DNA from: Antedon mediterranea
Taxonomy: Eukaryota; Echinodermata; Crinoidea; Comatulida; Antedonidae
Direction of reading: 5' to 3'
Length of the DNA stretch: 64,000 nt
Assembly (NCBI RefSeq): GCF_964355755.1
Contig: NC_092678.1
Span: 8,900,922-8,964,921, forward strand
The notes below the pieces were generated by a model that saw only the letters and a program-made list of their open reading frames with translations, was not told the DNA's origin and ran no database searches. Positions 1,846 to 30,150 of this stretch are shown piece by piece (positions within the stretch are counted from its first letter, which is position 1; the number at the start of each line of letters is the position of its first letter). The translations under genes were made by a program, and so were the position numbers.

Positions 1846-2244
1846 ACTTGAATCAGTAGACCTACTAAGAAATCAACAATCATCGACTTGAATCAGTAGA
1901 CCTACTAAGAAATCAACAATCATCGACTTGAATCAGTAGACCTACTAAGAAATCAACAATCATCGACTTGAATCAGTAGACCTACTAAGAAATCAACAAT
2001 CATCGACTTGAATCAGTAGACCAACTAAGAAATCAACAAACATCGACTTGAATCAGTAGACCTACTAAGAAATCAACAATCATCGACTTGAATCAGTAGA
2101 CCTACTAAGAAATCAACAATCATCGACTTGAATCAGTAGACCTACTAAGAAATCAACAATCATCGACTTGAATCAGTAAACCTACTAAGAAATCAACAAT
2201 CATCGACTTGAATCAGTAAACCTACTAAGAAATCAACAATCATC
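1846..2244. repeat. 40-bp minisatellite, about 10 copies
   Basis: A 40-bp unit (start of unit: acttgaatcagtagacctac) repeats head to tail about ten times with only a few substitutions (gta to gaa type changes in the last units and one cctac to ccaac change). The unit length is not a multiple of three and no frame stays open through it. It ends only 18 bases before the proposed start codon of the first secreted-protein gene, so it lies in its promoter or 5' untranslated region. Confidence 0.95.
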
Positions 2245-2262: not shown

Positions 2263-5200
2263 ATGAAGAAGACATCTACGAAAATGAGATCTTTGAGTAT
2301 TATATTATCTTTATCTATTCAGGTGCACATCGCTATTGGACAAGGTGGGTGATTGGACATCAATTATTATTAATACTTTCAGACAACTTATTGTACTGTA
2401 TGTCATTCAATAGGCCTACTACTAAATTTTAACAGTAAAATACAAAAATGTTGTTTCTTTCTAAACCATCCGTAAACATATATTTGGGAAAAATTAAACG
2501 ACGGTTCGTTTTTATTGTTATGTTATGCATAGGTTCTTTGATCTGATACAAAAGTGTAGCCTTACACACATTTAACTGTGGATATTTGCTTTCCAAAACC
2601 ATCCGTAAAAGTATGATGGAGCTTTTATTTTATGTGATGTATTGCTACGGTTGTCTAATTTGTAAATCGTACTATTATTCACCATATGGAAATAAGCTAC
2701 CAAGCTTCTATAAATGTATTTCTCTGTGTAATCTATATATAAATTTTAGATAATTAGTTATTGATGATTTAAATGAATTTAGGTTCAACGGTTTTCCGAT
2801 CGTGGTATACACTGTCTATAATGGATGTCGATGCTGAAAAATACAAGGATGCTTCGCATTTACCTATCTCCTTCTACGATAATTGTTTTATTAGCTGGAA
2901 ACCGGTTAAACAGCTCGAGATCAGCTGCATCAAAATGTTGAAGACAAGCCGATTTTCTTTAAAAACTACTATTTTGATAGATTTAATAATACGTTTATAA
3001 AAAAGGATTGCTTGGCGATGAATGGATCTATCGGTTCCCCAGTATAAGTATTTGGTATAACGCACGTAGGTACATTTATGAGCCCTTGGGGGATAAACTT
3101 AAAACCTTTGACAATAAATACACATAAACCCTTTTTTTTTTGGCTATTTTAAGCGCAAATTTCTTGTGTGGGGGTACAAATAAACTTTATTACTAGCAGC
3201 TGTATTAAATCGCAAATATTTTACTGTGTTTAGTGCAGTATATTATTTATACAACACAAAAGCGAATATTTCGTTACGGATAAAGGATATATTAAAACTT
3301 TTCCTATTTTCCAAATAAATTCAAATTAAATCAAAATGTTATTTCTACAGATTTCAATGCGTGTGGTAACCCTAATCCTTGTCAAAATGGAGCAGAATGT
3401 ATAGGTATTGTCACAGGCGATTACACATGCCAATGTCTCTATGGATGGGCCGGGAAGGACTGTGAAGTGGCCACAAGTAAGTATTTACATTTATTTCTAG
3501 AAATCTCTCATGCTATTATATATATTTGAATAAGTAATTTTAAGAATTGTTTGTGACGTCACTTTATCGGACTAGGATGAAAGAATGTCTAAATTCCTTA
3601 ACATGTGAATTTATGGTCATTGTTTATCTTGCGCAGTAAAAATTGGCCTCAAAATATCTCGAATTTCTTTCAAAACGCACTATAGACTTCTATCTAATTT
3701 GATAAATAATAAAATACTGATATTATAACATTAAACACATCGGCGGTAATATAAACTTCTATGTCGGGTGCATCAAAACTAATTAAAAGCTTTATTTAAT
3801 TATGTATTTATAATTAAAAATTAGAAGAAGCATGGAGTTTGCACTCTTTCTTCATGTTCGAAAACGGAACTGTCGCGAGAGGGCGTGCGAACTAGGAAAT
3901 CTATAAACGAAAAAAAAATAATTTTCTAATACATTTCCTACTATGGGACTTTGCTTAACTCACTACAGTATCTTGATAGAAACCATGGCAAATAGTTATT
4001 TTTTAGAAGATAATGAAACATGTATTAACGAAAGTTGAATCCAAGTTACTTAGGCCAACATAAGAATTTTGAACGAGTGCTGGATATTCCAATCATCATA
4101 TTCTCATGATTGGCCAGGTTCTCAAAAAGCGCGATTACGGAAATAACTGAACATGACATTCGGGGAAATATTCTATACTATAACTGTACCGACCCTACGA
4201 TTTTAAGTCAGCAGCACATATTAGGTCTACAATAAAAAATAATTTTAAATATTATTTTTTTTTTTGTCTTGTGTGAGTTCATCTCACGTTTATTTAAATT
4301 CTCATTGGTGAATATATTATATACATATAAGTACATTTGTGACAATTAAAAGTAAGTGTTTAAAGTAGTTAAAATACAGCTATATTTACATAATAAGATA
4401 CTTGAATTCAGTATTAACCATATTTGTTTTCATTAAAATTTTAGATACGATGTTAATTAAAATGTAAAAATGAAAAATGGTGGTAAAATACATTATCAAA
4501 ATTTTCTTGTTAAACTATCTTATTTGTGATCTTATTTGTGTTCGAGTAGAGAGGCTATAAACTCAGGGGAGGAAAATGTAGTATCCTCCCTTTTCACCAA
4601 GATAAAAAGGATGAAATGAAAAAAGAGGAATGCAAAAGTTTGAAAGTTAGATATTTAGAATGATAGCATGCAATGATATATTTAATGAAAACCTTAAGGT
4701 TAGAGTCCATACACTGTGCAAGTCCAAGATGCGATTTTGGCTCTGTGCGTATGTGAGACGCTTCATACCCGATGTCACCTTGGTACAACTACTACTTACA
4801 ATTTGTATTTACGATATAAAATATTGAAAATATAAAAAAAATATATATATTGGACAAATACAAATACATGCAGATAACATTGACATGTATACAATATGAA
4901 TATTGCAAATATAGAAAAATATATATATATTAAAAAATAAATACCAATAATTACAGATTTCATATAAGTTATTAAAATTGTCTAAAAACATAATCAAGAG
5001 TTACATTTAAAATCACTTGAAATAAAAAAGGGCTACACATTTATATTAAACTTATACAGCATATGTCACACTAATATAAAATACAATTGTAGATAGAGAT
5101 CTCCAGCACATATATATTTTAATTATTCAATAGGTCAAATATCCTGTCTTTACTATTTTTCCATTTCTGATCAGCAGTATAAAAGTTATGCGAATACTCA

Positions 5201-8200
5201 TTATTTATGAGGTTTATAATTTCATTTTTAAATAGCCCCCAAATATTTGCAGATTCTTTTTTTTTCTGTCGTTTCTAGTTCTTTATATATTATGGAGGAT
5301 TTATATATACAAAAAGTAAAAACTGAAATTAATTCGTTTACAAGTTTGTTTGTTGTTCCCAAAATTACATTACCCACTTTGGAATGTCTTGCTGTACTGT
5401 AATCTCATTTGGAAGACACTGAACAACCAGCATATCTTTAAACTTTTTCCAGACTGGTTGAATAGTTTTACATGCCATTAATAAGTGTTTTTCATTTTCT
5501 ATATGATTCTTATACACTTATTACATTTGTCTGTTGTGGATAATTTCCATCTTTTAAACAGAGCGGATTAATTGAATACTTTGCAACAATAAATGCAATA
5601 CCTGATATATGGAAAGAACAAATAAGGTTGGAAAATGCACGCATAGATATACAATTAAGAGAACATAATATATTTCATAATAGGATAAGATCGTCTTACT
5701 ATTATAAGCAGTTTATAAATGATATATGCATTATTCCAAATCCTCAAATGAAATGGGAAGTAGAATTTAGAGATGAAATCATTGACTGGAATGAAATATG
5801 GAATAGAAAAGTATGTAGAATGAAACACATGGAAAGTAGCTCAATTTAATTTTAAGTTGTTACATCGAATCCTTATAATTATGTAATTTTAAATATTAAA
5901 TGAATAAAATCAATTATACTCATGGAGTATAAAATCTGTTTGTATTAGGCCTAAATTAATCAATAAAAGAAATAGTTTTATCTGTAATATCAAATATATA
6001 CAATCAGCCAAAAGCCAAATATCCAAGTTTAACATACTGCTAAACTATTTTCTCAATGACATGGTTTACTGAAGGGGGACAGTTAAGGATAACATTTTAA
6101 TATACACATTTATCTTGGCATAATAATTGATAATTGTTTATGTCTTAAGTTGTTAAGTTAATTTACTTTTGCTTAACCTTTAGATCAAAATTGCGGTTAT
6201 AATTTATTCGCAAGAAGTGGAAATCTAACAAGCCCTAACTATCCGGGTAACTATAGTAACAGTGATGAATGTCATTACTATGTACGTGTCCATGGTGCTA
6301 AGCAACTAACATTCACTGTAGAGATGTTTGACACAGAGGTACGTAAAATCGAATTCAAACATTTTAAATATGCAATGGCTTAAAAGTAATAGTAGGCCTA
6401 ATAGCGCAACAATAAAAATAATAATGAAACTTGTCAATAAATCCTTCTCCTAAACGTTCCTTAACTAACAAATGAAAAGAGCCATACCCTACTACATATT
6501 GTGCTCAGTCAAGGCGAACTCTTGTCTGGACATGGAAATGTGCACATTTTTGATGGCACTAAAGTTTATTAAATTGATGGTGAGATGCTGAATAGGAAAG
6601 TTTGCTTGTCCAAAATTGCCCTCTTACACTAAAAATCTCTATACGACACCAGAAAACTCATAATAGGAACTATAAAACTGATGTTAGTGTTCCAATTTAA
6701 AATTAAAACCAGCCATAGCATTATTTTAGGTGTGAAAATTAATAACGTTAATATGCAGTACTTGCATGGAGATTGCATCCATCCTTACACTAAAAATGTG
6801 TAAAAAAAACACCACTCAATAAAACAGGATCAAAATACTAACTAAACTGAAGGCCATTGTACATTTTGAAACTGTAAAAATTTAAAACCTGAGCTGCAAT
6901 ATGTTAACACAACATAAAGGTCTGTTTGAATTTTTGTACACAGATTTTACTACTATTATTAAACTTAATATTATTCATATTTTCTAATTGTAGTTTTCAA
7001 AAGATGTGTTACAGTACGCCCCTGGTGTTCGATGGAATTTTAGTGCAAATACTGCACTGGACGGAAACTTGACAACAGTTCCAGGGCAGTTTACAGTTGA
7101 AGGAAGCGACGTGTGGTTCGTTTTTGAATCCGATAGAAATATTGTAAGACCAGGATTTTTAATATCTTACGTAGAGAGTAAGTACACACCAGAATAATGT
7201 TATTATACATGAATTAACGTCATTTTTAAACGATAAATTTAACTATATTAGCCTCCATGAATGCACAGCCAATAACAAATCATTTCATATCCTTGCTGCC
7301 TATCATTGGTTGATATCTTATTACGTTTATTACTAAGTTTGTTAATTAAACAGTAAAGGTACTTTTATATGGTTGCATTAACAACCAGCTCACTTTTATT
7401 TTTTCTGTAACGCCGTCTATAAATTGTAAAAATATAAACAGATTGCAGATTTATTTTATTATTTTTTTAATGTGATTGAAAAATTGTTTAACATAAAAAG
7501 TAGTCTTTCAGACAATGATTTTTTTCTTTCTATTCTGTTTTTTTTTATAAGGGAAAGAATTATTTTTGCTCGTCTTTTTAGTGGACGCGACTCTATAGTT
7601 CACTATGTCGGTCGGTCTGTCGGTCTGTCTGTCGGTCCGGTATCACTATGCGTTTTATCGCTTTCTGACCTTATCTTGATATCAGTCAATTTTTCACAGT
7701 ATATTCCTTATGGCTAGGAATCGATGTGGTTATGTTTTCACGGTGCGCAATAAAAAATTACGCGGTCTACTCACGATTTAACGAAATCACGTTTGTAATC
7801 ATATCTTCACAACCATGAATCACAATTAAATAAAATTTGGTACTCATAAATTTCAGGGCATAAATCATCATATGGCAATACAATTACGTGCGTAGCGCAT
7901 GTAACGCATTCGTACGCGCGCTTAAAATTTTCAAAATTTATTTTCGATGAAATAAGGGTACGTTTCAGGCAATTTTAAGCGTTTACAAAATTGCCATGAG
8001 TACAGGTTTTTGCGTGCGCGTCAAATGTTATCTCACACTCTTTTTGCCCGATTTCTGTTTTCTTGACTTACTTTTCAACTCGAAATTACCTTATACGAGC
8101 ACGTCAAAAGTGACAGGCTACTCACGTGTAAATTAAAAAAATATAAATGATTTTAAACATTTCAACATTTTTAAACATGTTCAGTAATTTCGGTCAGTTG

Positions 8201-11200
8201 GTAGGTTGGTCGGTCGGTCGGTAAACACTAATGAGCACGCGACTGCAGCCATCTATATGGCCTTGTTTTTGCTACAGAAGTGAATAACAGTAATCAAACT
8301 GTAAAATGGCCTATTCAAAGTATGATTTTATTAAAACAATATTGTAATTTACTGATTTCTATAGTTACAAAAATAAATATTTTAACAGTCAATATTTTAT
8401 TTTGATTAGCTAATCCAAGTAACTGTGCATCAAGTTTGTGTCAAAATGGTGCAGTTTGCACTGATCTTACAAACGGATACTATTGTGACTGCCCAGCAGG
8501 ATATGAAGGATCGAATTGCGAGATTGGTAAGTTTGTTCTTTTACATTGAAACGCACTTGAATTAATATCAATCAACATTTCAACTCTTCTCATACTACTC
8601 GTTTTCTTCACTCTAGTCTACCTCACTCACACTCTCACTCGCTCAATCTTTTCATCTTAACGTGTCTTCCTCTTCTGTGCTTGACATTAAAACTGCCCTT
8701 AAGATGTAGGCCTAACCTATAATTTATTACACTTTTATTAATTATTATAATAACAATAACAATAATCATAATAACAATAATTACAATAATTTAAAAAATA
8801 AGAGTAATGACTATAATTTTTATATGTTTTAAATGTAAATATGTTTGTATGATGTAGTATGTTTAAGCGGATATTGCCCTTGATGGTATTTGCAGCAATA
8901 AAGAAATTGAATTGAATTGAATTGAATTTTAAAACAATCTACATAGAGCATTACTGTGTATGTTCAAAGTGTATAATTAAATTTAGTGAATTATTGTTCT
9001 TCTTTCAGACACTAATGAATGTGAAGGTGTTGTGTGCACAAATGGTGAAGTGTGTGTAGATCGTGTAAATGGTTACGTATGTCAATGTCCATCAGGATTT
9101 ACCGGTCCAAATTGTGCTGATTGTAAGTTATTTTTAATGTTCGATGAAAAAAAAATAAAATACAAATATTATAAAATACCAGCTAGTGTATTTGATTGGT
9201 TTGATTTTGTGTAATATATAGTGGTATTGGTCATTTTGTCCCATTACGGCAACAGTTTTGTCCAACAGCCGGCTAATTGCCATATTTCAAGATTTTTGTA
9301 TAAATGACAAATACATAATATAATAAATAATATAAATGATGCGACATCGAAAAGAACTTATTTTAATGAAGTAGTTTGTATTTAATTACAGCATGTATGA
9401 ATACAAATTGTCCAATTCGTCTTCGTCCAAAATGTGGCAGCGATGGACAAACTTACCGCAACAGATGTTACCTACTAAACGCTAGATGTATGGACCCAAG
9501 TTTAACTATGGTTTCAAGAGGTGCATGTCCTGGAAGAGGTACTAATGACATTGATTTGTTTATGAATCAACGGTCATTCATTCATTTATTTTTATTCACA
9601 AAATACTCAGTTTTTAATCCTGGATTATTAACATTTACTTTGCTTTTAGTATAATCTCTTTTGTAGATTAACTTTATAATTTCAGGAGTTATCCAGGGAG
9701 AGAATCTATTTTTTATTCTTGAATTTTTTATAGGCCCATGTTTATTACTTAAATTTAGAAAGCAATTTTTAAACGTACCCCATGCATTGTCAACGTTATT
9801 AATATTGTGAATATTTTGTAATTTCTGAGAATGGGAAATATCATGTAAAAATGCACCTTCATCAAAGTTGTTATAATCTCTATAATATATTGTTTTATGT
9901 TTAGCTTCTTTTTCCTTAAATTTTAAACAGCTGTAAACCATAAAATGGTCGCTTAAAGCTATTTTAGCAACACCACTTAAATAGTACTGATCTGGAATTG
10001 TTGTTAGTATCAAATCAATACAACTTGATGAGTATGACGTAACTCTTGTTTAATCATGAATCAACTGGGTCATTACAAACATGTTTTCGATCATATTGAT
10101 AGGATTTTTCGAGAGGTTCTCATTTAAGACATAATCAATATTAAAATCGCCGAGTAGTACAATTTCAGTGTTTTCCATACTAACTTTTTCAAGTAAATCA
10201 ATAATTAAGTTAAAATATTCATAATTTGCCTTTGGAGGGCGGTATAAACAGCATATTAAAATATTTTGAATTTTTGTCCTAATAGCTCCAGCCCTACAGC
10301 CTCCAGATCATTTACATATAAATCAGATCTTTCTTTATAAGATATGGTATTCTTAATATTTAGGGGATACCCATATTAAAGAATACATACCTGTGAAACG
10401 AAAAGAAGAACCCGGACACACATCGCGTCGGTCTTAGATATATTTCATAGACACACACACATAAATTATTTAGCATCATAATACAATAGATTTTAATGAT
10501 GCAATAATATTAGTTAAAATGGCAATACAATGTGCGTATACACATGCATTTCGCAATTGTCACGGTGCATTTATTTATTTTTGTTGTTAAAGGACCTATC
10601 GCAATCATTGGTGGAAACCAGCGCACGTGTATTACAGGTGGGGATAGTGACAGTAGTGATTCAAGCATCGAATTTACTCAATGCCCTGCAGGTATGTAGA
10701 TCACAAATAACTTATTCTATCAGTTATTCTATCTTTCAACTTACACTTAAACCCAGTTACATTTAGTACCAGTTTCCGTTTCCAGTTAATCGAATTATTG
10801 ATATGGTGATGATATAATCACTTCTCTTTTTTTTTCTTTGTTATATGTATTAATTATTCTTGTGAGAGTACTGGAACCTCTGTGCAAAAACCTTTTTAAA
10901 GTAATGTTTTGGTTATGTACTAGAATATCTATGTCACACCATCGCCTGTGATAATGATATTTCAGCACTCCACTTCCAATGTGTAGATTATCTGCTGTAT
11001 GCAATGTTTTGCTGAAACGAAGAAATAAAAAAGTCTTTTATTTACTATTATAGTAGTAAAAGGTGTAAGTATTAAAATAAACAAAAATAAAATAAATATA
11101 TTTCTCAGCAACGACCCACATTTCACCATTTAAAAAATATAGAAGTCGATTCCTCCTAACTAGTAGTAACATTCTGAATAAATAGTTTTTCCTTCTTTTT

Positions 11201-11448
11201 TTGTAGAAATTACTACTGCACTACCAAATCCGATTGTGACGAATACTCCAACTCCAGAACAGTGTATTGATAACTGTCCTTTAATTTATGAACCTGTATG
11301 CGGTAGTGACGGACAGACCTATCCAAACCTTTGCAAATTAGACGTCGTGAGATGCTTAAATGACCCAGCACTAATTGCACTTTATGTCGGAGAATGTGTT
11401 GTTATGACAACTCCTTGCCGTGGAGATTGCTCGGCAAATGCCCCATGA
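2263..11448 (+). CDS. Gene A: secreted EGF-CUB-EGF-EGF-Kazal-linker-Kazal protein
   Basis: Nine coding exons: 2263-2344, 3351-3476, 6184-6338, 6994-7177, 8410-8526, 9009-9122, 9392-9538, 10593-10691, 11207-11448 (421 codons plus stop). All junctions have GT-AG ends and are phase 1 except the phase 0 junction inside CUB. Exon 1 gives a Lys-rich start (MKKTSTKMRS) and hydrophobic stretch, so a signal peptide; an in-frame TAG at 2248 supports this start, and ATG 2284 is an alternative. Exon 2 is a six-Cys EGF; exons 3-4 a CUB domain (LTSPNYPGNYS) that keeps only the first Cys pair; exons 5 and 6 are EGFs, the second opening DTNEC as in calcium-binding EGFs. Exon 7 is an agrin-type Kazal (CGSDGQTY, C4-x6-C5), exon 8 a two-Cys linker with SDSSDSS, exon 9 the second Kazal plus a short Cys-containing tail. 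Likely extracellular protease inhibitor or matrix protein; the exact function is not known. Introns 2, 5 and 7 contain LINE debris. Confidence 0.88.
2745..3300 (+). repeat. Dispersed repeat, copy 1 of 3
   Basis: This stretch in intron 1 of gene A shares long blocks with 55310-56150 (same strand) and 26830-27030 (opposite strand). Shared words include gaatttaggttcaacg, cgatcgtggtatacactgtc, aatggatgtc and ctattttgatagattta; a more distal block (ttttactgtgtttagtg, then atatttcgttac) is shared only with the 55-56 kb copy. No open frame is conserved among the copies, which suggests a non-autonomous element. Confidence 0.75.
4253..5890 (-). mobile_element. LINE copy with inverted 5' part (twin-priming structure)
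   Basis: Lies in intron 2 of gene A. From about 5540 down to 5160 the minus strand encodes the tail of a Tx1/L1-like ORF2: STTDKCNKC, a frameshift, then HIENEKHLLMACKTIQPVW and later LGTTNKLVNELISVFTF. From about 5560 to 5890 the plus strand encodes the segment that normally lies just before it (IPDIWKEQIRLENA, then WEVEFRDEIIDW and KLLHRILIIM). The two pieces are thus in opposite orientation and meet near 5545. A T-run at 4253-4266 could be the poly(A) tail of the minus-strand element; that left end is the least certain part. Frameshifts and stops show it is inactive. Confidence 0.65.
7575..8275. repeat. Dispersed repeat with CGGTCGGT termini
   Basis: Intron 4 of gene A. The left end reads gcgactctatagttcactatg followed by cggtcggtctgtcggtc-type runs near 7585-7640; the right end near 8195-8275 reads tcggtcggtcggtaaacact then gcacgcgactgcagccat. 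The same left and right words sit next to each other, without the roughly 550 bp between them, at 28725-28825, and in reverse orientation at about 240-340. This is the pattern of a longer element and its internally deleted relatives. Confidence 0.6.
8840..8930 (+). mobile_element. 3' end of a CR1/L2-like LINE with GAATT microsatellite tail
   Basis: The text gatattgcccttgatggtat, then cagcaataaagaaattgaat, ends in four to five copies of the 5-mer gaatt. CR1/L2-type LINEs characteristically end in short tandem oligomers instead of poly(A). Only the 3' untranslated end is recognisable; an AAT/AAC-rich simple repeat lies just upstream (about 8735-8800). Compare the matching 5-mer tail at 29227-29248. 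Confidence 0.5.
9560..10400 (-). mobile_element. LINE endonuclease-domain fragment
   Basis: The minus strand encodes the C-terminal half of an apurinic-like endonuclease/exonuclease/phosphatase domain and the linker to reverse transcriptase: CCLYRPPKANYEYF near 10250, VLLGDFNID near 10150, SSSCIDLILTTIP near 10010, LSDHFMVY near 9950 (the SDH catalytic motif) and FSPWITPEIIK near 9680. A stop near 10050 and further breaks upstream interrupt the frame. GDFN and SDH are family signatures of CR1/jockey/L2-type LINE endonucleases. The fragment lies inside intron 7 of gene A on the opposite strand. Confidence 0.85.
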
Positions 11449-11818
11449 ACTCTATAAGTTTATAAACAAAGCAAGTATGTAAATTATAACAATTATTATA
11501 ATGCTATGCTATTAAATTTAACATTGATGTAACATTTTTTTCGTTTAGGCCTAAATCTGTATTTTCTAAATTGTAAATTATATCAAAAGTATAAAAAAGT
11601 AATATGTTTTGCAGACCCTTTAGTATAATAAAATTAGATAAGCGTGTAAACTAAACAAAGTTTTTATACAGTAGAAAACGAACCAAGGGTACCGCGCATC
11701 AAAAACACATATATAACACATCTTTCCTATTATTATTATTATTATTATATTAATACTGCATAAGATCTCAATCATTCATAATTATAATGTTTCTGTATGG
11801 TTTATCTTTAAATGCAAT

Positions 11819-11824
11819 AATAAA
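11819..11824 (+). promoter_or_regulatory. Candidate polyadenylation signal of gene A
   Basis: AATAAA about 370 bases past the stop codon of gene A, followed by a T-rich stretch. It is the first clear canonical hexamer with a U-rich context after the stop; the site is inferred without transcript data. Confidence 0.4.
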
Positions 11825-11829
11825 GTTCA

Positions 11830-13130
11830 ACTTAAATCAACTTCTTGTTTCATGTTTATTTATGTATACAAACTTCAGATGGTTACTCAACAATTATAGT
11901 ACGTATTCAACATTATTATAACATTTGGACACATTTCTTTCTGTGATTTACATACGTACTTTACTTTAGTTGTACAAACGCCTGGGATTTATAAATAGTA
12001 TTGTCTGCCCTCCCTGAAAGCCCAGGTCGTCAACAGTAATGTGACAACACATTATTAATAATTTTATAGATTGTATGTGTGAAAAAAAATGTGGGGTTCG
12101 ATAACCATGCAATTATGAATTTCCCATCGGAGTTAATTCCCAGAGTGACAATAACTTTTGACAAATTTAAATTTATCAGGTGGCTTTAAATTAATTATAC
12201 ATTTTGCACTTTCCAGTTATTTACACCAATGTTTAGCCTACAAGTTAAAATATACGCCCTACCCTCACAAACAATAACACGGTAGTTTTAAGAAACGTAG
12301 CGTTTTGTTAGCACGAAAATAATGTCTCAAACAGCTTTCCTGAAAATCAGCAAACTCACTCATGAAGACAGTGACATTTATTTACTTTAATACTAAAAAC
12401 TAGGTATCAACTAACATTTGGGTAAGTATGATATCAAGGTAATATCCAGGGTATAACATTAGGCTACATTGGGTCGAACTGTGAGCGATGCCTGGCCTTC
12501 TAAAAAAACGATTACGTCAAACCTCGCCTATATAAGAATGAGGTAGGGGGGTATTTGTAAACGATACGGGAATAAAACCAAAAGCTGAACAACCTATATA
12601 ACCCTGAACAGAATTCGTTGGTGGAGGCTTGGTTAAACCTATTTTACTGTTGACGTTGAGTTCCGTTTAGATTTCAAATCATAAAGCCTGTTTTACTGTC
12701 GAAGTCGTTGAGTTGCGGCGAGTTACGCTGCATTGCGTTGAGGGTTGTAGTTGAGCTGTACGTTTTTTTTCTCAAAAATTATGAATTTGAGTTGATTGTT
12801 CCCCCTTCTCTAAACAAAAAAAACAAAATCTTTCTTGAAATATACGCTTGTAATAGTGTTTGACTCAAATATACGCTACTGCTGAGTGCTATTGAACAGA
12901 GTTATAGGCCTACAGCGTTTTAATTAATATTAATACACCATAATTTAATGATTTATCAAACGACAAATGTTGACTGAGTCATTGTGTTGTTACGTAGAAT
13001 GAGTGGAACCGCGTATTCCTAAAATGGATAGACAATAAAAAGAATTGTGATTGCAGCAATTGTGCACACACCAGCAGTATAACCAACCCACCAACACACC
13101 ATATCGTACAATTATTAGCTACAGACTAGG
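11830..13130. other. Intergenic region between genes A and B
   Basis: No coding content recognised. A TATATAA word at about 12529-12536 (ctatataagaatgag) and another near 12595 are possible TATA elements, about 600 and 530 bases before the start of gene B. This is weak in such AT-rich DNA; if used, a long 5' untranslated region would result. Confidence 0.3.
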
Positions 13131-16100
13131 ATGATGGCAGTCATAAGGATGAACATTTTATTTTATGTTTTGACGTTTTTGATGTTGTCCGATGCTCATA
13201 ATTATAAAGGTATGATCTCTCTTTAAAAATCCTGTTTATGTCTTCAAAACATTAATACTGTATGTTATACTTCTGTTCATGTTTCTTGAATTAATTTGTC
13301 TCTAAACTGAAATGTAAAAAAACGAGGCCTGCATAACGAATATATTAATGTATTTAATACACCAATATCTTGTATTGGTGAAACTGTTTTCTTCCGTTAG
13401 AAATGTATGTATTATTTTGAACTGTATCAAATATATAATATTATATACAAATTTGTGGCTTTATTTTGTATTGTTTTCACGGCATGATTTACCAAACTTA
13501 AATTAGTTCTCTAGAAAATTGAAATTATTCTATCTGGCCTTCCAAAAAAAGTATTATTTAATTATTATTATTATTTTAAATTATAATGGTATATTTAGGT
13601 ATTTAACATTTCATACACTAATTTTAATTTCTCTTAGTAACCGATCCTAGATATTCAACTATCGCTACCTCATTCTCGAGGTACGGTAGTTTTTAACATG
13701 CACGATTGTACTTCATGCTTATATTTAATCAATACAAAGAAATGACAATTAACAATTATTTTAACATAAACTGGTTATAACATATGCAATAACATGATGT
13801 ACATGATTAATGTATTGACAGGTTGTAGGAAGAACTGTCACAGCAGAAGTTCTCCAAAATGTGGAAGTAACGGTGTGACGTATCTAAACAGATGCTATTA
13901 CATGAATGCAAGATGTGATGACCCTTCGATTTATATTGTTAGTAAAGGAGAATGCCAACAGTCAAGTAAGAGCAACTTGTATTTATTTAAATGTTATTTT
14001 GATTGATATATAATATTACCCGTGATTAATTATTCACGTTGCGCAATATAATATTTTAGTAATCCGTTTGATAGGCCCATATAGAATTATTTTAAGCTCC
14101 ATGAGTATTACATTCTATAAACTGTAAATATGGTATTCTATATACTGACATTGTTTGCTAGCCGACAGGCAATAATAATATCATGAATGATTCCTGATTT
14201 CTGCATTAACCTGATCGGAGGAAAAAATAATACAGCCGTCTTCTCTTGGCCAAGAAAAACAAATAGACAAATTATTAATACAACAAAATAATACAAATAT
14301 TTTGGGGAAAAAAAACAATTACAATATCGAAAGAAGTTACAAATTTGCTGAATTTTTAGAGTGAAATATTCGAATAGTTTAAATGGTCTATATCTATAAT
14401 AATGGTGACGGGAATGGAGATCCGTAAATTAAAGTATACAGTACAAATCAATAATATTGTTAAATTGAGTAGTTTGATAAGATTTGTACTTAATTTTGGC
14501 CAACTTAAAGTTCACATTTTTAAAATTATGTTACATGTGGTGGTGTAGACCTCTCACAACCCTACCCTTGAAATCGGCTTGGCCCATTGAAAATTTAAGA
14601 TTCAAATATCTTTTTAATTTGACACAACAGCAATTATAGAAAATAATAATAATTTGATTGTCAGAAGCAAACTAAAACACTGTATGACGACTATTTTATT
14701 TTTTAACATAAATACAAATAAATTAAAAATATAATTTTTAATAATTTAAAAGAAAAATAAGAGAGAAAAGAAAAAGAGAATTTAGGTATAAACAATTCTC
14801 GAAACTTACAAAAAGAACAAGGTCCCTTAAATCTGAGGGAAGACCATCCCAACGTTTACAGCATCTATGAAAGAGTGAGGATTGGAAACAGTCCGAGCAA
14901 AGGGTTGCCTGAAAAGAAGATCAAATGTGTGACGTAATATAGGAAAAAAGAAGGAAGAAACATCATAATCAATAAAACTTAATGTTTATGTTATTCAATT
15001 GATTCCAAATTGGAACTTTGATACCATTTTTACTTTTCTATCTATATCGGGTCTATATTCTAAAAATATTCTTTTCTCGGCCCCAACCAACACCCTCTCA
15101 GTCACTACCATTTCCACTGAAAACCAGCATCCACCAGGTCCAGGTGTATTCCACATTAGTCTCTCAAACTTTTATACAATTAACGTAATTAATTGGACCA
15201 TCAAATGTATGGTTACCAAATTCGACACCTTCCATTAAACTAGTTACATACCTGGAGTACCGTAGTATTCCACGTGCAACACATTTCAGTTTGACATATC
15301 CCAGAAAACAATATCTTTTCCTAAATCTATACTTTAGCCAAATGTATATATGCAAAAGAAGTTAACATGTTTAGCATTACAAAATAAGATTGGTGGAAAT
15401 AATTACAAGAAAAATTTATTACAAAAAAACGCCGCTCACTAAGGTCGTCGACACGCCGTTTAGAGGAAAGAATGTTTTGACAATTATTCAATGATAAATT
15501 GATGGTATTTTTTATATCCGGCTTCCTTCGACAGCTAGCCTACAACAGACAGACTATACTATAGCTGTCAGTGTCAGTCTGGTGCACACATTTTACACTA
15601 TACATATAGACTTTCTGTTACCTGACGTGCTTTGGGTCGTAGTATAGACCTATAAATTAGTCGAGTTTACACATTTTTCAGTTCTGTCAACTGTAGTACT
15701 AAAGCTTCGCGTGTGATAACTAACTTCTTCCTAATACTCTGGGAATATAACTGCCTAAAGGCCCGGCACGAAAACTTGTTTGGGTAAAGAAAAATAAGAG
15801 CCTTGAAAATGACAAAGATTATCCGTATGAATTCGGATAACAAATTATTATAAAAATATTTCGAGTATTTTATATTTTTGTCATGGTAAAACACTAGGTA
15901 TCTTGATGACTGTCACTCAAGCCCAGTAATGTATGATTGTTGGTGATTTTATTGCCAACTTTCCTTGTATCGCCAACCGTAAAACTATTTCCTATAATGA
16001 TATTGTAAATATCAACCAATTATATGGCAACATTTCATTATTGGTGTGTTAGAATCTAGTACACTATGATCTGAAGGGAAGCGTGTTAACCAAAAAGCTA

Positions 16101-17377
16101 CAGACCCCGTGTATCGGATTGGTAATGTACGTTTTATTAATTTTCACTAGAAATTGAAGAAGAGCATTCGAGAGTCAGACTGTGTTTAAATGTTGGGGGA
16201 AGTGATAGTGGCAGTGATAGTGGGGAAGCAATGTTTGTTGACTGCACACGTAAGTATCAATTAAATATTCGATTTTATTAGATTGATTATTTATGCACAC
16301 TGGTATGACTGTATGAGATAATAATGATGTTTGGTTTCACAGTCAGTCTTTCCGAACAACATATAATGTGAGGGTAATGCTAATTGTTAATTTGACTCGG
16401 AAAGCAGGAAAAAGACATGACCAATACTATTTGTCCAGCGATTCTAGATTATCATAATTCGCTACATTTCGTGATGGTTATATGAAGCCATGAAGAATTC
16501 AATTCTATAGTACTGAATTAATAAATCTTAATGGTTATGTTATATAAGCATAAATAATTGTAATTCATTTTCAACTCAACTCAAATTTAAATGCTTATTA
16601 TGATGTAAATCAACCATTCAAAATAGGTGCACATCTTTATTTGTTAATTGTTTTCTGATGGCTATGGTGTGTTGTCAATTTGTATTTCTTTCTTCCTCTT
16701 AAGATGTTAGCGGTAATAACCGAGATAGAAAAACAGGTAACTTGGGCAATACAGGGGCTGGTGGTGGTGGTGACGGCACAACCAACAACGGTGGTGACGG
16801 TACTTTCATCAACAACAATAATGGTGGTAATGGTGGAAATGGCAACAATGGTGGTAACCAACCTGACGGTGGTGATGGCGCTAACGGTGGTGATGGTGCT
16901 AACGGTGGTGATGGTGCTACCGGTGGTGATGGTGCTACCGGTGGTGATGGTGCTAATGGTGGTGATGGTGCTACCGGTGGTGGTGGTACTAACGGCGTTA
17001 ATACTGGCGGTGAAAAAGGAAATGGGGAAGAGAATAATATAAATGACGTTACTCCGTCCAACGGTCTAGGTGGTAATGGTCGTGGAGACGTTGTAACTGA
17101 CCCCAACAGTTATCCTAATGGTAACGGTGGCGTTACGGCAGATCCAGCCGGTACATTATCTTATCAGCGTGGTGAAACCACTAACATTAATTCAAAAGCG
17201 TTAACTGAAAGTGTTTGCCCTGATAACTGTTTAGCATTTGGCATCGCTTGGGTTTGTGGTAGTGATGGGATTGATTACAGCAACGAATGTCAATTGAACT
17301 CTATAAAATGCTCAGTTAAGCCTTACCTATACAAGGTTAGAGATGGCAGGTGTCCACCACCTCGTGGAGATATTTAG
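13131..17377 (+). CDS. Gene B: secreted Kazal protein with Gly/Asp/Asn-rich repeats and RGD motifs
   Basis: Exons 13131-13209, 13822-13965, 16151-16249 and 16704-17377 close in frame (331 residues), all phase 1. A possible extra 48-bp exon at 13638-13685 (encoding DPRYSTIATSFSR) also fits the phase but has a weak donor. Exon 1: signal peptide (MNILFYVLTFLMLS). Exon 2: agrin-type Kazal (CGSNGVTYLNRC). Exon 3: 33-codon linker with two Cys around GGSDSGSDSGE. Exon 4: about 150 residues rich in Gly, Asp and Asn, with GGDGAN/GGDGAT units, then GRGD at 17078-17089, a second Kazal (CGSDGIDYSNEC) and a C-terminal PPPRGDI. Paralogue of genes A and C in the same order and phases. RGD and Gly repeats suggest extracellular-matrix or cell-adhesion roles; this is inference. 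The second Kazal has Ala at the predicted P1 site, so inhibition is uncertain. Confidence 0.87.
14740..15120 (-). mobile_element. LINE fragment, C-terminal reverse-transcriptase tail
   Basis: In intron 2 of gene B. The minus strand reads RHTFDLLFRQPFARTV then SNPHSF and, after a frameshift, HRCCKRWDGLPSDLRDL, which matches the usual end of LINE ORF2 proteins (an S-F-x-R...W-N-x-L-P-x-x-L-R pattern). The part from about 14888 to 15115 recurs almost word for word at 17995-18200 (gaaaagaagatcaaatgtgt, ttgattccaaattggaac, ctcggccccaaccaacaccc). Confidence 0.65.
15635..15790 (+). repeat. Dispersed repeat, inverted relative to 27345-27490
   Basis: Shares gacctataaattagtcgag, gtttacacatt, gtactaaagctt and ataactgcctaaaggc with the reverse complement of 27345-27490. 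The two copies are about 11.7 kb apart, one inside gene B's second intron and one intergenic. No coding potential is seen, so it is probably a MITE-like or other non-autonomous element. Confidence 0.65.
16868..16993 (+). repeat. Coding 18-bp minisatellite (Gly-Gly-Asp-Gly-Ala-Asn/Thr)
   Basis: Six to seven tandem 18-bp units of the form ggtggtgatggtgctaac lie inside the last exon of gene B and give GGDGAN or GGDGAT. Every third residue is Gly, so the stretch reads as proline-free Gly-X-Y triplets. The units differ at the last codon (Asn or Thr) and by silent changes. Confidence 0.9.
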
Positions 17378-17705
17378 TATACTATGGTATACTGGATACA
17401 TATACATACTTTCTGCGTTTGTTATTTGATGTGGATTTTTTATTATTAGATTAAGAAAGTGATGGTATGGCTTATATTTTGTTATAAAATGTCGTATTCA
17501 GCAGCATTGTTTTTTTATAGTGCATTATTCTGTTACATAAAAAAAAACCTGTTTTGCAACCCGACCGAAAGTGTTGTTTTTTTTATATTATTATTTATTT
17601 ATCTGGTGCGCGTGTGTACAATTGACGGACTAGTGCTGTTGCGACGTACCACGCCGAGAATGTTAAAGAGTCGCTATTCAATCGAGTTTGAACAATACCA
17701 TGAAA
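17378..17705. other. 3' flank of gene B
   Basis: AT-rich sequence after the stop codon. No canonical AATAAA is seen close to the stop; the transcript end is unclear. Nothing else is recognised. Confidence 0.4.
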
Positions 17706-17779
17706 GCCCCCAAGTTGTCTAATGGTTAGGACAGCTGCATATCAAGCAGAAGATCCGGGTTCGAGTCTCGGCTGGGGCG
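17706..17779 (+). tRNA. tRNA-like sequence (probable pseudogene or SINE head)
   Basis: A 74-base stretch has a TGTC/GACA D-stem around taatggttag, a CTGC/GCAG stem around the 7-base loop atatcaa, and a strong T-arm (ccgggttcgagtctcgg, B-box ggttcgagtc), then ggggc pairing with the 5' gcccc, and a TTTTT pol III terminator at 17782-17786. The acceptor stem pairs only about five of seven bases and the anticodon stem only four; the loop would give anticodon AUC, which is not a normal eukaryotic tRNA. A decayed tRNA or tRNA-derived SINE is therefore more likely than a working gene. Confidence 0.5.
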
Positions 17780-17839
17780 ACTTTTTCTCATTCTCACAGA
17801 TTTCCTCATCTTATTAATTAATTAATTAAACTTCAGTAT

Positions 17840-18000
17840 ATCACCGGGCGGTTTAGAATTAATGTTCTTTGCTTTGTATCAGTGGCTGGATCTCATTGGA
17901 GATACAAAAAAAAAGCGAAAAACTAAATGAAAACGATAAAGTCAAATAGCCAGAAAAGTTAGCATAGCTTTCGGTCAACACTAGCCCTTCATCAGTCCGA
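17840..18000 (-). mobile_element. Repeat with hammerhead-like hairpin, copy 1
   Basis: Shares aacgataaagt, agccagaaaa, gctttcgg and ctagcccttcatc with 32729-32990. Read on the minus strand the right end gives CUGAUGA (complement of 17989-17995), a GC-rich hairpin, then GAAA (complement of 17969-17972), the two invariant strands of a hammerhead ribozyme core. An extra A after CUGAUGA and a mismatch in the hairpin make it imperfect. Penelope-like elements are known to carry such motifs, which suggests that origin. Confidence 0.5.
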
Positions 18001-18200
18001 GCAAAGGCTGGACTGAAAAGAAGATCAAATGTGTGACGTAATATAGGAAAAAAGAAGAAAGAAACCTAATGTTTATGTTATTCAATTGATTCCAAGTTGG
18101 AACTTTGATACATTTTTTACTTTTCAGCTTAATATTGGGACTATATTCTCAAAATATTCTTTTCTCGGCCCCAACCAACACCCTCAGTCACTACCATTTC
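17995..18200 (-). mobile_element. LINE-derived dispersed repeat, second copy
   Basis: A near-duplicate of 14888-15115: cagtccgagcaaagg, gaaaagaagatcaaatgtgt, gacgtaatataggaaaaaag, ttcaattgattccaa and ctcggccccaaccaacaccc appear in the same order, with a 14-base deletion. It abuts the hammerhead-like repeat directly. Confidence 0.7.
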
Positions 18201-20560
18201 CGAGTTTTGTCTCTCCATTATATTTGACATCGTGGTCTAAGTATCTCTTATGAGATCCCGCTTCATGAATAAAATACTGAAAGATGAGGGCAAGTAACGT
18301 AGAACTAATGAGTGATAATGATTGGATTTTTCTGATGATGGCCACATTGGGAATTAGACAATTATCATGTAATCACTACTGTAATAATTATTTCTCTCAC
18401 TATTGTAGTATTAAAATTATTGTTGTGAATAAGTATACACCACTTTACAACTAATTGTGAGAAATCTTAGGAGACGATTCTTGCAGGGGAGGAATGTGGG
18501 ATGACGCTATTCGTTACTCATCGTATGCATGAGTAATTTATAGAATTATGACGTAACGTTTTATAGTAAGAGGGCATCGTTATTAATACATTACAGATGT
18601 TGTTGTTAAAATGTATTTTCGTCCATAATATTATTGAATGACATAACAATTCTATATCGAATAAATAGTAGGTTAATCTATGTTTTATTGATATTTCTGT
18701 GAGCCGTTATTCAGACACCATTCTTTCTGAGATTTTCTCTAACCTTTATGTGGCAAAACTCATCTCATTCCTTTATAAGAATTTTCAAATATTTCGCTGT
18801 GCTTACTAAACAACTGATCAAATTACAATCAGGTTGATCTTGCAAATGTTGATATAATTTAAGTTAAATATTTTGCCTTGTTTGTCCAATATAACCTCAC
18901 TCAGTACTACCATCCAATCAAGTAAGCGTGTGTCTCTAGTCAGTATGGTGAAATATAACTATCCATTGTACACAAGCCTAATAAAGATAAATGTATACGT
19001 CCTCTTATACGTATAATAATTCACAGGGCGGGATATTTTGACATGTAGATAGAAAACAATACCACCTAGTGATATATTGGAAATTAATTTTATTGATTTG
19101 TGAAGATAAGAAAAAACTGTGAGCGTGGGAATAAAATCATTACTCTCCAATACAGTAGACCAATATCATTATTTATATCACAATTTCTTCAAGTTAAATG
19201 ATGCACTATATTAATAATAGTCTTAAATTGCCCCTTATACACGTTAATAGAATCAGTTGTTAATTTAATTTCCGTCGTTCGCGTGTTCAAGTGGATAATA
19301 CGACTAACAACCAATCCGTGTGTATCCTGATCGTTTCCGTTAAACTTGAATTTAAGAAGCAGCTTTAAAGAATGTTTAAAACTTCTGTAATCATATTACT
19401 AGAAACCACTTGGACGCTAACACAGTTACATTAAAGCATAGTAAAGGTAAGTGTCACTGTTTTGTTGTCGATATGTTTTAACTTTCATGTTATTATAGAT
19501 GACACCGAGTCAATGTATTTAATGTGTTAAATTAAAGAAGATAGAGATTATAATATCACAACGCTTTCCTGATTAAACATGAAATATGTTTTTAATGTAT
19601 TACAAAACTACGACATGCAGTTTCATAATACTGTAAAAATATGCAATATAAAGATAAAGTCCATCACGGTTTGTTTTGTTTTTCTATGATTATTATAATA
19701 CAATTAACATGTTATTAGGTGCGTGTGTTTTTAAATACTAATGTATCACAATGCTTCAACAGCAGATACGATCCAGACAACTTTTAGAAATATAAAAGTA
19801 GTAGTTGTTTAGATCAGCAAATCGTAATACAAAATGCTGATTAGGCTTGAACTGATATTTCCAAATATGAAACTAAAATTACGGAAAAAGTCTAAACTTT
19901 ACACTCGATTTCCAAATCAATAATAATATTTTTATTTTCTATTTTAATATATGTATAATCTTATAATTGTAAATAAAAATAAATATACAAAGACATTTAT
20001 ATAGTTCTACAAAACAAAATTTCAATTGCAAAGAAAGCGGTTTTTATTATTAAAATCAAATAATAAAAATCAATAATAATATTTGTATGTTATATTTTAA
20101 TATAGGCCTATTATATGATATCTTATAATTGTAAATACAAATAAAAATGAATATAAAATACATTTATATATATAGTCTTACAAAAACAAAATAAGAAACA
20201 AAAACAACAATTTCGGTTGCAAAGAAAGAGGTTTTATTATTAAAATGATATGTAACAAAACTGAAATGGATATAAAGGTGAGGAAAAGTCTCAGTGCAAT
20301 GAGTAAAACATGTAGACTTTAATAACAAACCATCCTGCCCAAAACAGAACAATATGAAAACAAATCGTGGAAAGCGTAATGTCGGAATGACGGAAAGGTT
20401 TCAAGAGAGAGAGAGATGATAAACAAATAGTTACAAAATATTTTAGATATAAAATAACTATATAATACTACTTACTATACTAAAATAATTGATGATTGTT
20501 ACTACATATTTGCATGTTTTATTTTTAAGCAATATATTATAGTTTGTATTCAGAATTATG
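18201..20560. other. Intergenic region before gene C, with possible noncoding first exon
   Basis: No coding exon is recognised. The text agtaaag/gtaagtgtc at 19440-19452 is a strong splice-donor match, and gene C's first coding exon opens right after an acceptor (ttttgttctag at 21992-22002). A noncoding first exon ending at 19446 would therefore place the 53-bp minisatellite inside a 5' intron of gene C. This is inference. AT-rich imperfect duplications occur at 19910-20240. Confidence 0.35.
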
Positions 20561-20563
20561 ATA

Positions 20564-21722
20564 GGTACGTGACATTATATTGACCACATCCCCAATAACA
20601 AGTATGTGGCGCTGTAGGTACGTGACATTATATTGACCACATACCCAATAACAAGTATGTGGCGCTGTAGGTACGTGACATTATATTGACCACATACCCA
20701 ATAACAGGTATGTGGCGCTGTAGGTACGTGACATTATATTGACCACATACCCAATAACAGGTATGTGGCGCTGTAGGTACGTGACATTATATTGACCACA
20801 TACCCAATAACAAGTATGTGGCGCTGTAGGTACGTGACATTATATTGACCACATACCCAATAACAAGTATGTGGCGCTGTAGGTACGTGACATTATATTG
20901 ACCATATACCCAATAACAAGTATGTGGCGCTGTAGGTACGTTACATTATATTGACAACATACCCAATAACAGGTATGTGGCGCTGTAGGTACGTGACATT
21001 ATATTGACCACATACCCAATAACAAGTATGTGGCGCTGTAGGTACGTGACATTATATTGACCACATACCCAATAACAAGTATGTGGCGCTGTAGGTACGT
21101 GACATTATATTGACCACATACCCAATAACAAGTATGTGGCGCTGTAGGTATGTGACATTATATTGACCACATACCCAATAACAAGTATGTGGCGCTGTAG
21201 GTACGTGACATTATATTGACCACATACCCAATAACAAGTATGTGGCGCTGTAGGTACGTGACATTATATTGACCACATACCCAATAACAAGTATGTGGCG
21301 CTGTAGGTACGTGACATTATATTGACCACATACCCAATAACAAGTATGTGGCGCTGTAGGTATGTGACATTATATTGACCACATACCCAATAACAAGTAT
21401 GTGGCGCTGTAGGTACGTGACATTATATTGACCACATACCCAATAACAAGTATGTGGCGCTGTAGGTACGTGACATTATATTGACCACATACCCAATAAC
21501 AAGTATGTGGCGCTGTAGGTACGTGACATTATATTGACCACATACCCAATAACAAGTATGTGGCGCTGTAGGTACGTGACATTATATTGACCACATACCC
21601 AATAACAAGTATGTGGCGCTGTAGGTACGTGATATTATATTGACCACATACCCAATAACAAGTGGCGCTGTAGGAACGTGACATTATATTGACCACATAC
21701 ACAATAACAAGTATGTGGCGCA
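20564..21722. repeat. 53-bp hairpin-forming minisatellite, about 22 copies
   Basis: A 53-bp unit (gctgtaggtacgtgacatta... ) repeats about 22 times with few changes. Each unit contains CCACATAC, the ten bases ccaataacaa, then GTATGTGG, a perfect 8-bp inverted repeat able to form a hairpin. Most substitutions are outside the arms; the last units carry a 4-base deletion and several changes. The array lies about 280 bases before gene C's start codon. Confidence 0.95.
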
Positions 21723-22002
21723 GCTGTATCACAGAACTATCAAAAGAAAAATTAACAAGAATCACAGATCACAGTATCTCGGAATCAGGTGGTTCAAATA
21801 CACCAAATGAATACTATTTAAAATTCCTTGCATATTTTAAATATTACTATTTAAGTTAACAACGCGTTGTACGTATGAATATGTATATATTATGAATATT
21901 ATATTTATTTATCATTTATTATTTATCATTGTCTGCAATTATTACCATTTCCTTGTCGTTTTGTCATTTTATTAAATAAACACATGTCTATTTTTGTTCT
22001 AG

Positions 22003-23518
22003 ATGGGAAAATTACTGGCAATAACAGTATCACTATGCATCATCGTCGTAGTAGAATCAATATGTAAGTCGTCTATTATTAGGGTCAGGGGATGTTGATG
22101 TATTATAAGCAAAGTAGTATTATTCAATAACCAGAACAAGTTTCGTGGGAACAGGATACGATGACGCATTTAAGGGATTTAAAAGTGTCGTTACTAGTAA
22201 AACACAATCACTGTAAGTCTATTAAAAGATTTTCCAGAAGAAACTTCTTTCTACCTCTAACTCTTACACGTCAGTATCTAAATAGATTTTGCAAAATGCA
22301 GAGTCCAAAAATATTTAAATTCACACTACTTCATCTACCAATATCATGATAGACCGTCATATAGTGCATGTATCTGGCTCGATAGGCCCTACAGGTCATA
22401 TGTGACAATGATACACATGTAGCACACTGGACAAATTGTGCTGCATGTCGTGACGTAGTTTGGCTGTACCTGAAAACCAGCCATAATAATAATCTTAAAA
22501 TTGTATGCTATTTTGTTATCTAGTTACATGTGACAAAATCTGCCCAAGACGAAGAGTTAGAGTTTGTGACCAGAACGGTGTTCGATATCGAAATCTCTGC
22601 GAATTTCAGAAGGCAAAGAAGTGTTTTGGGGGAGATCCACGACTAATCAAGAACAATTGCAATAAATTTGGTAAACTTGCTTTTATGTATCTAAATTAAC
22701 ATTATCACTATCATAATCCTCATCATTATCATAGCATCGGATTATCAAATAGCAATCTCTATTATACTACTTTTTCTGATTATAGAACAAAATCAGCAAG
22801 TTAACGTAGCAAACTGTGCTTTGTCATCAAGTGAAGAAATGCCAGCAGGATGCCGAAGGAAACATGGCAATAAAAAGATACCATGTAAGACACTGTCTGT
22901 TATTAATAACAATTATTTCTATCTGTTTTAAATGTTTGAAGGTGACATATTAATCTACAAACAGTACCATGTAATATGTTTTATGTGGAGCCAAAAACGT
23001 ATTATTGTTTTAAATAGATATTTCCTGTATTTTGCATGATTCTGAAACAGTAATCTGTTTTATAATTCTTATAATCTTTTCAATGTTTGTTTTTCTTGTT
23101 GCTAAATTGTCTCTTTGGCACTAATAGGTTTCAGGTGTCTATAGATAATGTTAACACTTATTTATAGAGATATGAAAATGATAGCAAACAAATATTCTTA
23201 TCTTTTTTATTTAAAACAGAATATATGATGTTATCTATTTCCATTCATTCTTATTTAGTTGTGACTAAAGTACCAGTGATTCCAACAACCGAAGCAACCG
23301 CAGGTGTGTACTGTGAAGAAAACTGCCCTCTAGTATTCGAACCCGTTTGTGGAAGTGACGGAATTACTTATCCATCGAGATGTGTTCTGGATGCTCTGTC
23401 ATGTTCAAGAGAAAGGGAAGCCATCCTAAGTGGACAGACCAATCACATCAAACTAATACCTGTATCCGTCGGTCAATGTCCAATTCCTTCTGCTAATCCA
23501 ACACCGATAATAGGCTAA
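22003..23518 (+). CDS. Gene C: small secreted Kazal-linker-Kazal protein
   Basis: Four coding exons, 22003-22063, 22524-22670, 22786-22884 and 23259-23518, all phase 1, give 188 residues. Exon 1 is a signal peptide (MGKLLAITVSLCIIVVVES). Exon 2 is a divergent agrin-type Kazal: Cys spacing is kept but the usual CGSDG is replaced by CDQNG, and Arg occupies the predicted P1 site. Exon 3 is the family's 33-codon linker with two Cys around SSSEE. Exon 4 carries a short Thr/Pro-containing spacer, a second Kazal (CPLVFEPVCGSDGITYPSRC) with an unusually long C5-C6 loop, and a short Pro-rich tail. It is the minimal member of the tandem family with genes A and B. A secreted serine-protease inhibitor is plausible; targets are unknown. 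Confidence 0.88.
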
Positions 23519-29221: not shown

Positions 29222-30150
29222 AGAAATCAAATCAAATCAAATCAAATCTTTATTCGTTCCATATAAAATAAATTGTACATGGAAAAATTGTTTTCCTCGA
29301 CAGAAAAATATGGTAAAACATTCATAATTACATCATACATAGAACAAATTTACAATTTAAAAACATTAATTAAAACATCCATCAACAGTAAAACTTTAAA
29401 ATATATATTGCATGTGCGCTATTATGATCTAACAATCTTTGAGTTAAACATATGAGTTGAATTTGGTACAAAAGACAGTCGGTTTCTTGACGTATCAGCT
29501 CTAGGAACCCGTAACCGGCCTGACTTGTTCTTAAAATATCTCATATGTAATGGATGTTTCTTATCTTCTAAAATTTTACTTAATTTACTTAGGACCTGTT
29601 TTTCATAAAGATATTTTAAATCATTAACCGTACAACCAATTATATTTGATGCTATCTTAGTAATTCTAATGAGACCTTTCTTGTGTGTTTCATTTAAATT
29701 ACCGAACCAAGCAATAAAAGAGATAACTAGTACTGATTGAATAACTGTTTCATAGAATAATTTTAAAGTACCACAGCTAACATTAAATTTATTTAGCTTT
29801 CTTAGGAAAAATAACCTTTGGTGACCTTTCTTAATTATCTCGGCCGTATTTTTTTCAAAACTAAGTTGATCATCAATATGTGTACCAAGATATTTGGTTT
29901 CATGAACACGTTCAATTGTCTGATCATTAACTATCAGATAATTTTTTTCTTTTTTCTTTTTCCTAAAATCCCATATAATTTCTTTAGTTTATTAAAATTA
30001 ATCTTAAGGTAATTGTCATTGCATCATGACATTAATTTAACATATTCAGCCTTATACACATGATCGTCAGCATTTTTCAATAGACCAATCAGTACCATGT
30101 CATCTGCGTATTTGATTATATGACTATAGTGTTCCAGAGAAAAGTGTTGT
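29222..30150 (-). mobile_element. CR1/L2/Rex-like LINE, 3' part of reverse transcriptase with microsatellite tail
   Basis: The minus strand carries KYADDMVLIGLLKNAD near 30110, containing the YADD catalytic motif of reverse transcriptase, then after frameshifts LIVNDQTIERVHETKYLGTH, KLFYETVIQSVL, AWFGNLNETHKKGL and RYFKNKSGRLRVP down to about 29460. The 3' end at 29227-29248 is a tandem of aaatc (gattt on the element's strand), the usual ending of CR1/L2-type LINEs. The copy is 5'-truncated just above the YADD motif and frameshifted, so inactive. Confidence 0.88.

Follow-up and report, generated by a model that had tools for sequence, protein, structure and literature searches.

The window, which here means the whole stretch of DNA analysed (C9:8900922-8964921; 64,000 nucleotides), carries three plus-strand genes, A (2263-11448), B (13131-17377) and C (22003-23518). 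Every exon was re-derived for length, splice sites and phase, and the coordinates given in an earlier note on this DNA were correct for all three genes. Introns ended in GT..AG throughout, and all junctions were in phase 1, with the sole exception of the intron inside the CUB domain of A (phase 0). Searches beyond the window covered a genome of 354 Mb in 18 contigs.

Pfam placed two Kazal domains in every one of the three genes, accompanied in A by EGF and CUB matches. With the Kazal profiles PF00050 and PF07648, each of the three genes passed the Pfam cut-off, with two matched stretches apiece. The features of the locus are collected in Table 1, in which K1 and K2 denote the first and the last Kazal domain.

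Table 1. Exons of genes A, B and C and neighbouring Kazal genes (window coordinates unless prefixed with C9).
Feature	Position	Strand	Length (bp)	Basis and remarks
A exon 1: start codon and signal peptide	2263..2344	+	82	donor GTGGGT, phase 1; start codon inferred
A exon 2: EGF	3351..3476	+	126	Pfam; phase 1-1
A exon 3: CUB, first half	6184..6338	+	155	Pfam; ends in ...FDTE
A exon 4: CUB, second half	6994..7177	+	184	Pfam; phase 0-1
A exon 5: EGF	8410..8526	+	117	Pfam; phase 1-1
A exon 6: EGF	9009..9122	+	114	Pfam; phase 1-1
A exon 7: K1	9392..9538	+	147	Pfam; groups in tree with K1 of B and D
A exon 8: linker (C..GGDSDSSDSS...C)	10593..10691	+	99	splice sites, frame
A exon 9: Thr/Pro stretch, K2 (P1 Leu), stop	11207..11448	+	242	Pfam
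B exon 1: signal peptide	13131..13209	+	79	splice sites, frame
B exon 2: K1	13822..13965	+	144	splice sites, frame; tree
B exon 3: linker	16151..16249	+	99	similarity to A linker
B exon 4: Gly/Asn/Asp-rich block, K2, stop	16704..17377	+	674	Pfam, composition
18-bp tandem repeat within B exon 4	16866..16995	+		7.2 copies, 91% match; encodes much of the Gly-rich block
C exon 1: signal peptide	22003..22063	+	61	start codon inferred
C exon 2: K1, the most divergent	22524..22670	+	147	Pfam, tree, z-scores
C exon 3: linker	22786..22884	+	99	no sequence similarity to A, B, D linkers
C exon 4: K2 (P1 Leu, with insertion), stop	23259..23518	+		Pfam
Gene D	-7408 to -2396	+		just upstream of window; all phases fit
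Gene E, upstream of D	C9:8887811-8889740	-
Gene H, upstream of D		+
Gene G, upstream of D		-
Gene F, upstream of D		-

Several other features were observed around and within these genes. The start codon of A lies 19 bp beyond the end of a 40-bp minisatellite (window 1846-2244; 10 copies, 98% match), and the K1-linker intron of A holds a minus-strand reading frame (9582-10049) that looks like a piece of a retroelement and had no Pfam match. Just downstream of B, a tRNA-Asp-like gene with anticodon atc was found at 17707-17779 (+) by ARAGORN under the bacterial code. Between B and C lies a 53-bp minisatellite (20562-21721; 22 copies, 97% match), ending about 280 bp 5' of the start of C. Elsewhere in the window, a minus-strand frame at 29422-29988 also has the look of a retroelement piece, with ALKBH8_N as its sole Pfam match, and an uninterrupted minus-strand frame of 1420 amino acids (57618-61880), which had no Pfam match, repeats in its middle a 19-residue unit (HGNQQQMGGDPRNQPCVPM-like) about 26 times.

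The earlier note described a tandem family of three genes. This description is real for A, B and C, but incomplete: gene D and at least four further Kazal genes lie nearby, within about 68 kb; eight Kazal genes were found in C9:8.856-8.925 Mb, with D, A, B and C arranged head to tail. Gene D consists, in order, of a signal exon, an EGF exon, a CUB domain in two exons, an EGF exon, a Kazal exon of 147 bp, a linker exon of 99 bp and a last Kazal exon. Genes E, H, G and F each carry Kazal domains together with low-complexity stretches of their own; these four models rest on open reading frames with splice-like ends and carry less certainty than those of D, A, B and C.

In gene E, two Kazal-like exons with missing cysteines and an acidic Ser/Glu stretch precede an intact last Kazal domain; its front domains look as though they are decaying. 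Across the genome, 83 Kazal_1 matches were recorded in several clusters. A second large array on the same chromosome (C9:3.485-3.565 Mb) has acidic or Pro/Thr-rich stretches after its Kazal exons, a style nearer to that of the Kazal proteins of the sea urchin tooth matrix.

The common core of the three genes agreed with its earlier description, with K1 exons of 147, 144 and 147 bp and linker exons of 99 bp in A, B and C, respectively, all in phase 1-1. Sequence similarity was compared with that of shuffled sequences. For K1, the values among A, B and D were high (z = 19-24, with A-B and A-D at 23-24), and C was weaker (z = 4-7). For the linker, z was 7.1 for A-D, 4.2 for A-B and a weak 2.9 for B-D. 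The linker of C gave z values of about 0 against those of A, B and D; it did resemble one exon from gene E (z = 5.6). Homology of the C linker with the other three could thus not be demonstrated, and the claim of a linker shared by three genes holds by sequence for A and B, and for C in length, phase and position only.

A tree of 33 Kazal domains, a check that had been proposed earlier, placed K1 of A, B and D in one group (79/83; 95% of bootstrap trees), and pairing of K1 of A with K2 of the same gene was rejected (p = 0.045). Both results indicate that the core was copied in one piece, as an entire gene, and was not rebuilt each time. Tandem duplication of the Kazal-linker-Kazal core and its phase 1-1 modularity are thus supported by structure, phases and tree together. 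The duplicated unit would comprise the signal exon, a Kazal exon, the 99-bp linker exon and a second Kazal exon, and the locus would be part of an ancient tandem array of genes for secreted Kazal proteins. Since the copies are only about 35-55% identical, they are old, and the portrayal of the locus as a small factory for domain gain is too strong.

The EGF-CUB block had been regarded as particular to A. This novelty of a single gene was given up once D was found with nearly the same architecture, EGF-CUB-EGF-Kazal147-linker99-Kazal. The gene models of A and D were drawn from splice sites and frames, and the intron between the EGF and Kazal exons of A contains a putative AATAAA. Both points would suit a reading in which two adjacent genes, one with the EGF-CUB exons and one with the Kazal core, were wrongly joined on paper; the signal would also allow a truncated EGF-CUB product of A. 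However, the same juxtaposition across a short intron (269 bp in A, 362 bp in D) occurs in two diverged copies, every phase fits, and between the EGF and Kazal exons neither gene has a signal exon that could serve the Kazal part. We therefore regard wrong joining as very improbable and treat A and D as single genes.

The likely source of the head was sought by a genome search with D and with the CUB domain of A, which returned genes of the order EGF-CUB-EGFn on C1 and C2. In A and D, the CUB intron occupies the same place and phase 0 (after ...TE and before xxKD...) as in two genes near C1:19.662 and 19.989 Mb, both of which have an EGF before the CUB domain and EGFs after it. This intron is absent from the genes near C1:16.720 Mb (f16720) and C2:740 kb (f740). 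In the gene at C1:19.66 Mb, a long series of EGF exons leads to an avidin exon on the same strand near 19.650-19.651 Mb, and the gene at 19.989 Mb likewise has avidin exons downstream on the same strand. This EGF-CUB-EGFn-avidin order is the layout of fibropellin, a matrix protein. Genes of this order suit an echinoderm genome without being proof of one, and a COX1 search turned up no mitochondrial contig. Avidin matches in the genome were confined to C1, C3 and C8, with none on C9.

Identities followed the same division. Over EGF-CUB-EGF, A was 51% and 49% identical to the two C1 fibropellins and 36% to the two genes with an unsplit CUB domain, and D gave 47% and 47% compared with 39% and 35%. 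Exons 3 and 4 of A were 53% and 48% identical to the first and second CUB exons, respectively, of the fibropellin at 19.989 Mb. A and D thus share with fibropellin the N-terminal EGF-CUB-EGF order at about 50% identity, as well as the position and phase of the CUB intron. In contrast to fibropellin, they lack the long EGF array and avidin and end in Kazal-linker-Kazal. On this comparison, A and D are predicted to be a fibropellin-type head on a Kazal core: the N-terminal module (EGF, split CUB, one or two EGFs) would have been joined to the 5' end of the D/A branch through phase-1 introns.

How often, and in which direction, the head changed hands was considered next to this evidence. In the EGF-CUB tree, where the CUB and EGF-CUB alignments were short, p-AU was 0.50 for A and D together and 0.42 for A with fibropellin. 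Given the neighbouring positions of the two genes, a single origin is the simpler reading. Separate capture of the heads of D and A, each from another fibropellin gene, with the array as a repeated landing site, is in our view improbable; if true, it would be genuine recurrent exon shuffling into a Kazal array.

The full EGF-CUB-EGF-Kazal-linker-Kazal architecture might alternatively be ancestral, with B and C as shortened copies that lost the head and no gain at this locus. The best tree does nest K1 of B among those of A and D (B with D, 77/75), a placement that calls for loss in B, but this branching is weak, and no EGF-CUB exons were seen in the upstream genes examined (E, G and F). The similarity of the head to fibropellin also still demands one transfer at some point. 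An ancestral head is rated as rather unlikely, and a gain on the D/A branch may be the better reading.

The low-complexity material had a different origin. The Gly-rich block of B (33% Gly, 18% Asn, 8% Asp and only 3% Pro) had been listed among the material around the core; it in fact lies inside the last exon, together with K2. As a shuffled exon it was rejected, the 18-bp tandem repeat being internal to that exon. At the corresponding place in its last exon, gene D carries an exact 42-bp duplication. Repeat expansion, and not exon shuffling, accounts for the Gly-rich block of B and for the Thr repeat of D; among the variable material only the EGF-CUB block is exon-shuffled. The view that exon shuffling shapes the locus therefore stands for the EGF-CUB head, with its fibropellin layout and shared intron, and falls for the Gly-rich block.

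Concerning function, the signal-like first exons, read by eye, suggest that the products of A-D are secreted. The K2 loops read CPLIYEPVC in A, CPLVFEPVC in C and CPLSFEPLC in D, and their Leu occupies the P1 position by the numbering of ovomucoid third domain. A reactive loop with intact cysteines and a plausible P1 residue was found in K2 of A, C and D and in none of the K1 domains. In K2 of B, one additional loop residue and the lack of a P1 Leu make such a loop doubtful. In K1 the loop has diverged, the residue at the P1 position being I (A), S (B), N (D) and R (C). The P1 Leu loop was also present in genes E, F (first Kazal) and G (first Kazal of the last exon).

Relatives of these Kazal domains with solved structures include rhodniin, infestin and the anemone elastase inhibitor. 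These non-classical Kazal inhibitors have in common with the present genes a short first loop and the hydrophobic-P1 loop seen in K2. These three are free Kazal inhibitors and are not known to carry an EGF/CUB head or an acidic linker. Agrin and follistatin Kazal modules were also among the best sequence matches with solved structures. The architecture of agrin and follistatin differs from that of A-C, in which the follistatin module (FOLN hairpin plus Kazal), laminin G and SEA domains gave no Pfam match at E values up to 1.

The closest described group to A-D is that of the Kazal proteins of the sea urchin tooth matrix (PMC2614417). These are secreted proteins with one or two Kazal domains and variable low-complexity blocks of acidic or Gly-rich character, and their consecutive gene numbers suggest a tandem group. 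Secretion and one or two Kazal domains are shared with A-D, the signal peptides of the latter being assigned by reading. The sea urchin proteins have Ala/Pro-rich blocks that are absent from the A-D translations as read. EGF, CUB and a 99-bp linker are not mentioned in the section of PMC2614417 on these proteins. Two members of the group are phosphorylated (PMC2830187).

A rival reading takes A-D as structural matrix proteins whose Kazal folds serve as stable cysteine knots without protease inhibition, as may be the case for skeletal Kazal proteins. In its favour are the K1 loops, which lack a usual inhibitory P1, and the similar secreted Kazal proteins with acidic, Gly-rich low-complexity blocks in the sea urchin tooth matrix, a group with two phosphorylated members. 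Against this, the P1 Leu loop persists in K2 of A, C and D as well as in genes E, F and G, and a purely structural role is considered possible at best, with the odds against it. The A-D proteins are instead likely to be secreted, matrix-associated Kazal inhibitors, as judged from their sequences. For K2 of A, C and D, possible targets are serine proteases of the elastase, chymotrypsin or subtilisin type. K1, having lost the inhibitory loop consensus, may be structural or of altered specificity. Anchoring of the inhibitor in the extracellular matrix, or contact with mineral or calcium, may be the task of the EGF-CUB head together with the acidic Ser linker.

The earlier note knew of no described family with this layout. 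No description of EGF-CUB-EGF-Kazal-linker-Kazal was found in the one open-access collection of literature searched, to the extent that its texts were consulted, so the statement holds for the exact architecture; it does not hold more broadly, as similar Kazal families with variable blocks have been described (PMC2614417). Agrin/Kazal-type proteins are reported from brittle star and sea urchin skeletons in PMC4336488 and PMC5460417, and domain shuffling with duplication in skeletal proteins was proposed earlier in the latter. The locus is a case of known domain shuffling on a Kazal core and not a new kind of system, and no new mechanism is opened by these genes.

The account as a whole, in which an old tandem Kazal array received a fibropellin head on D/A, grew repeats within exons and gave rise to matrix-tethered inhibitors, is considered probable, with appreciable room for doubt. 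The donor family, the shared intron and the recipient core can all be named in one genome, for an inhibitor family acquiring a matrix-binding head. If the architecture is conserved in other echinoderms, it would provide a dated case of exon shuffling and a set of candidate matrix-anchored inhibitors.
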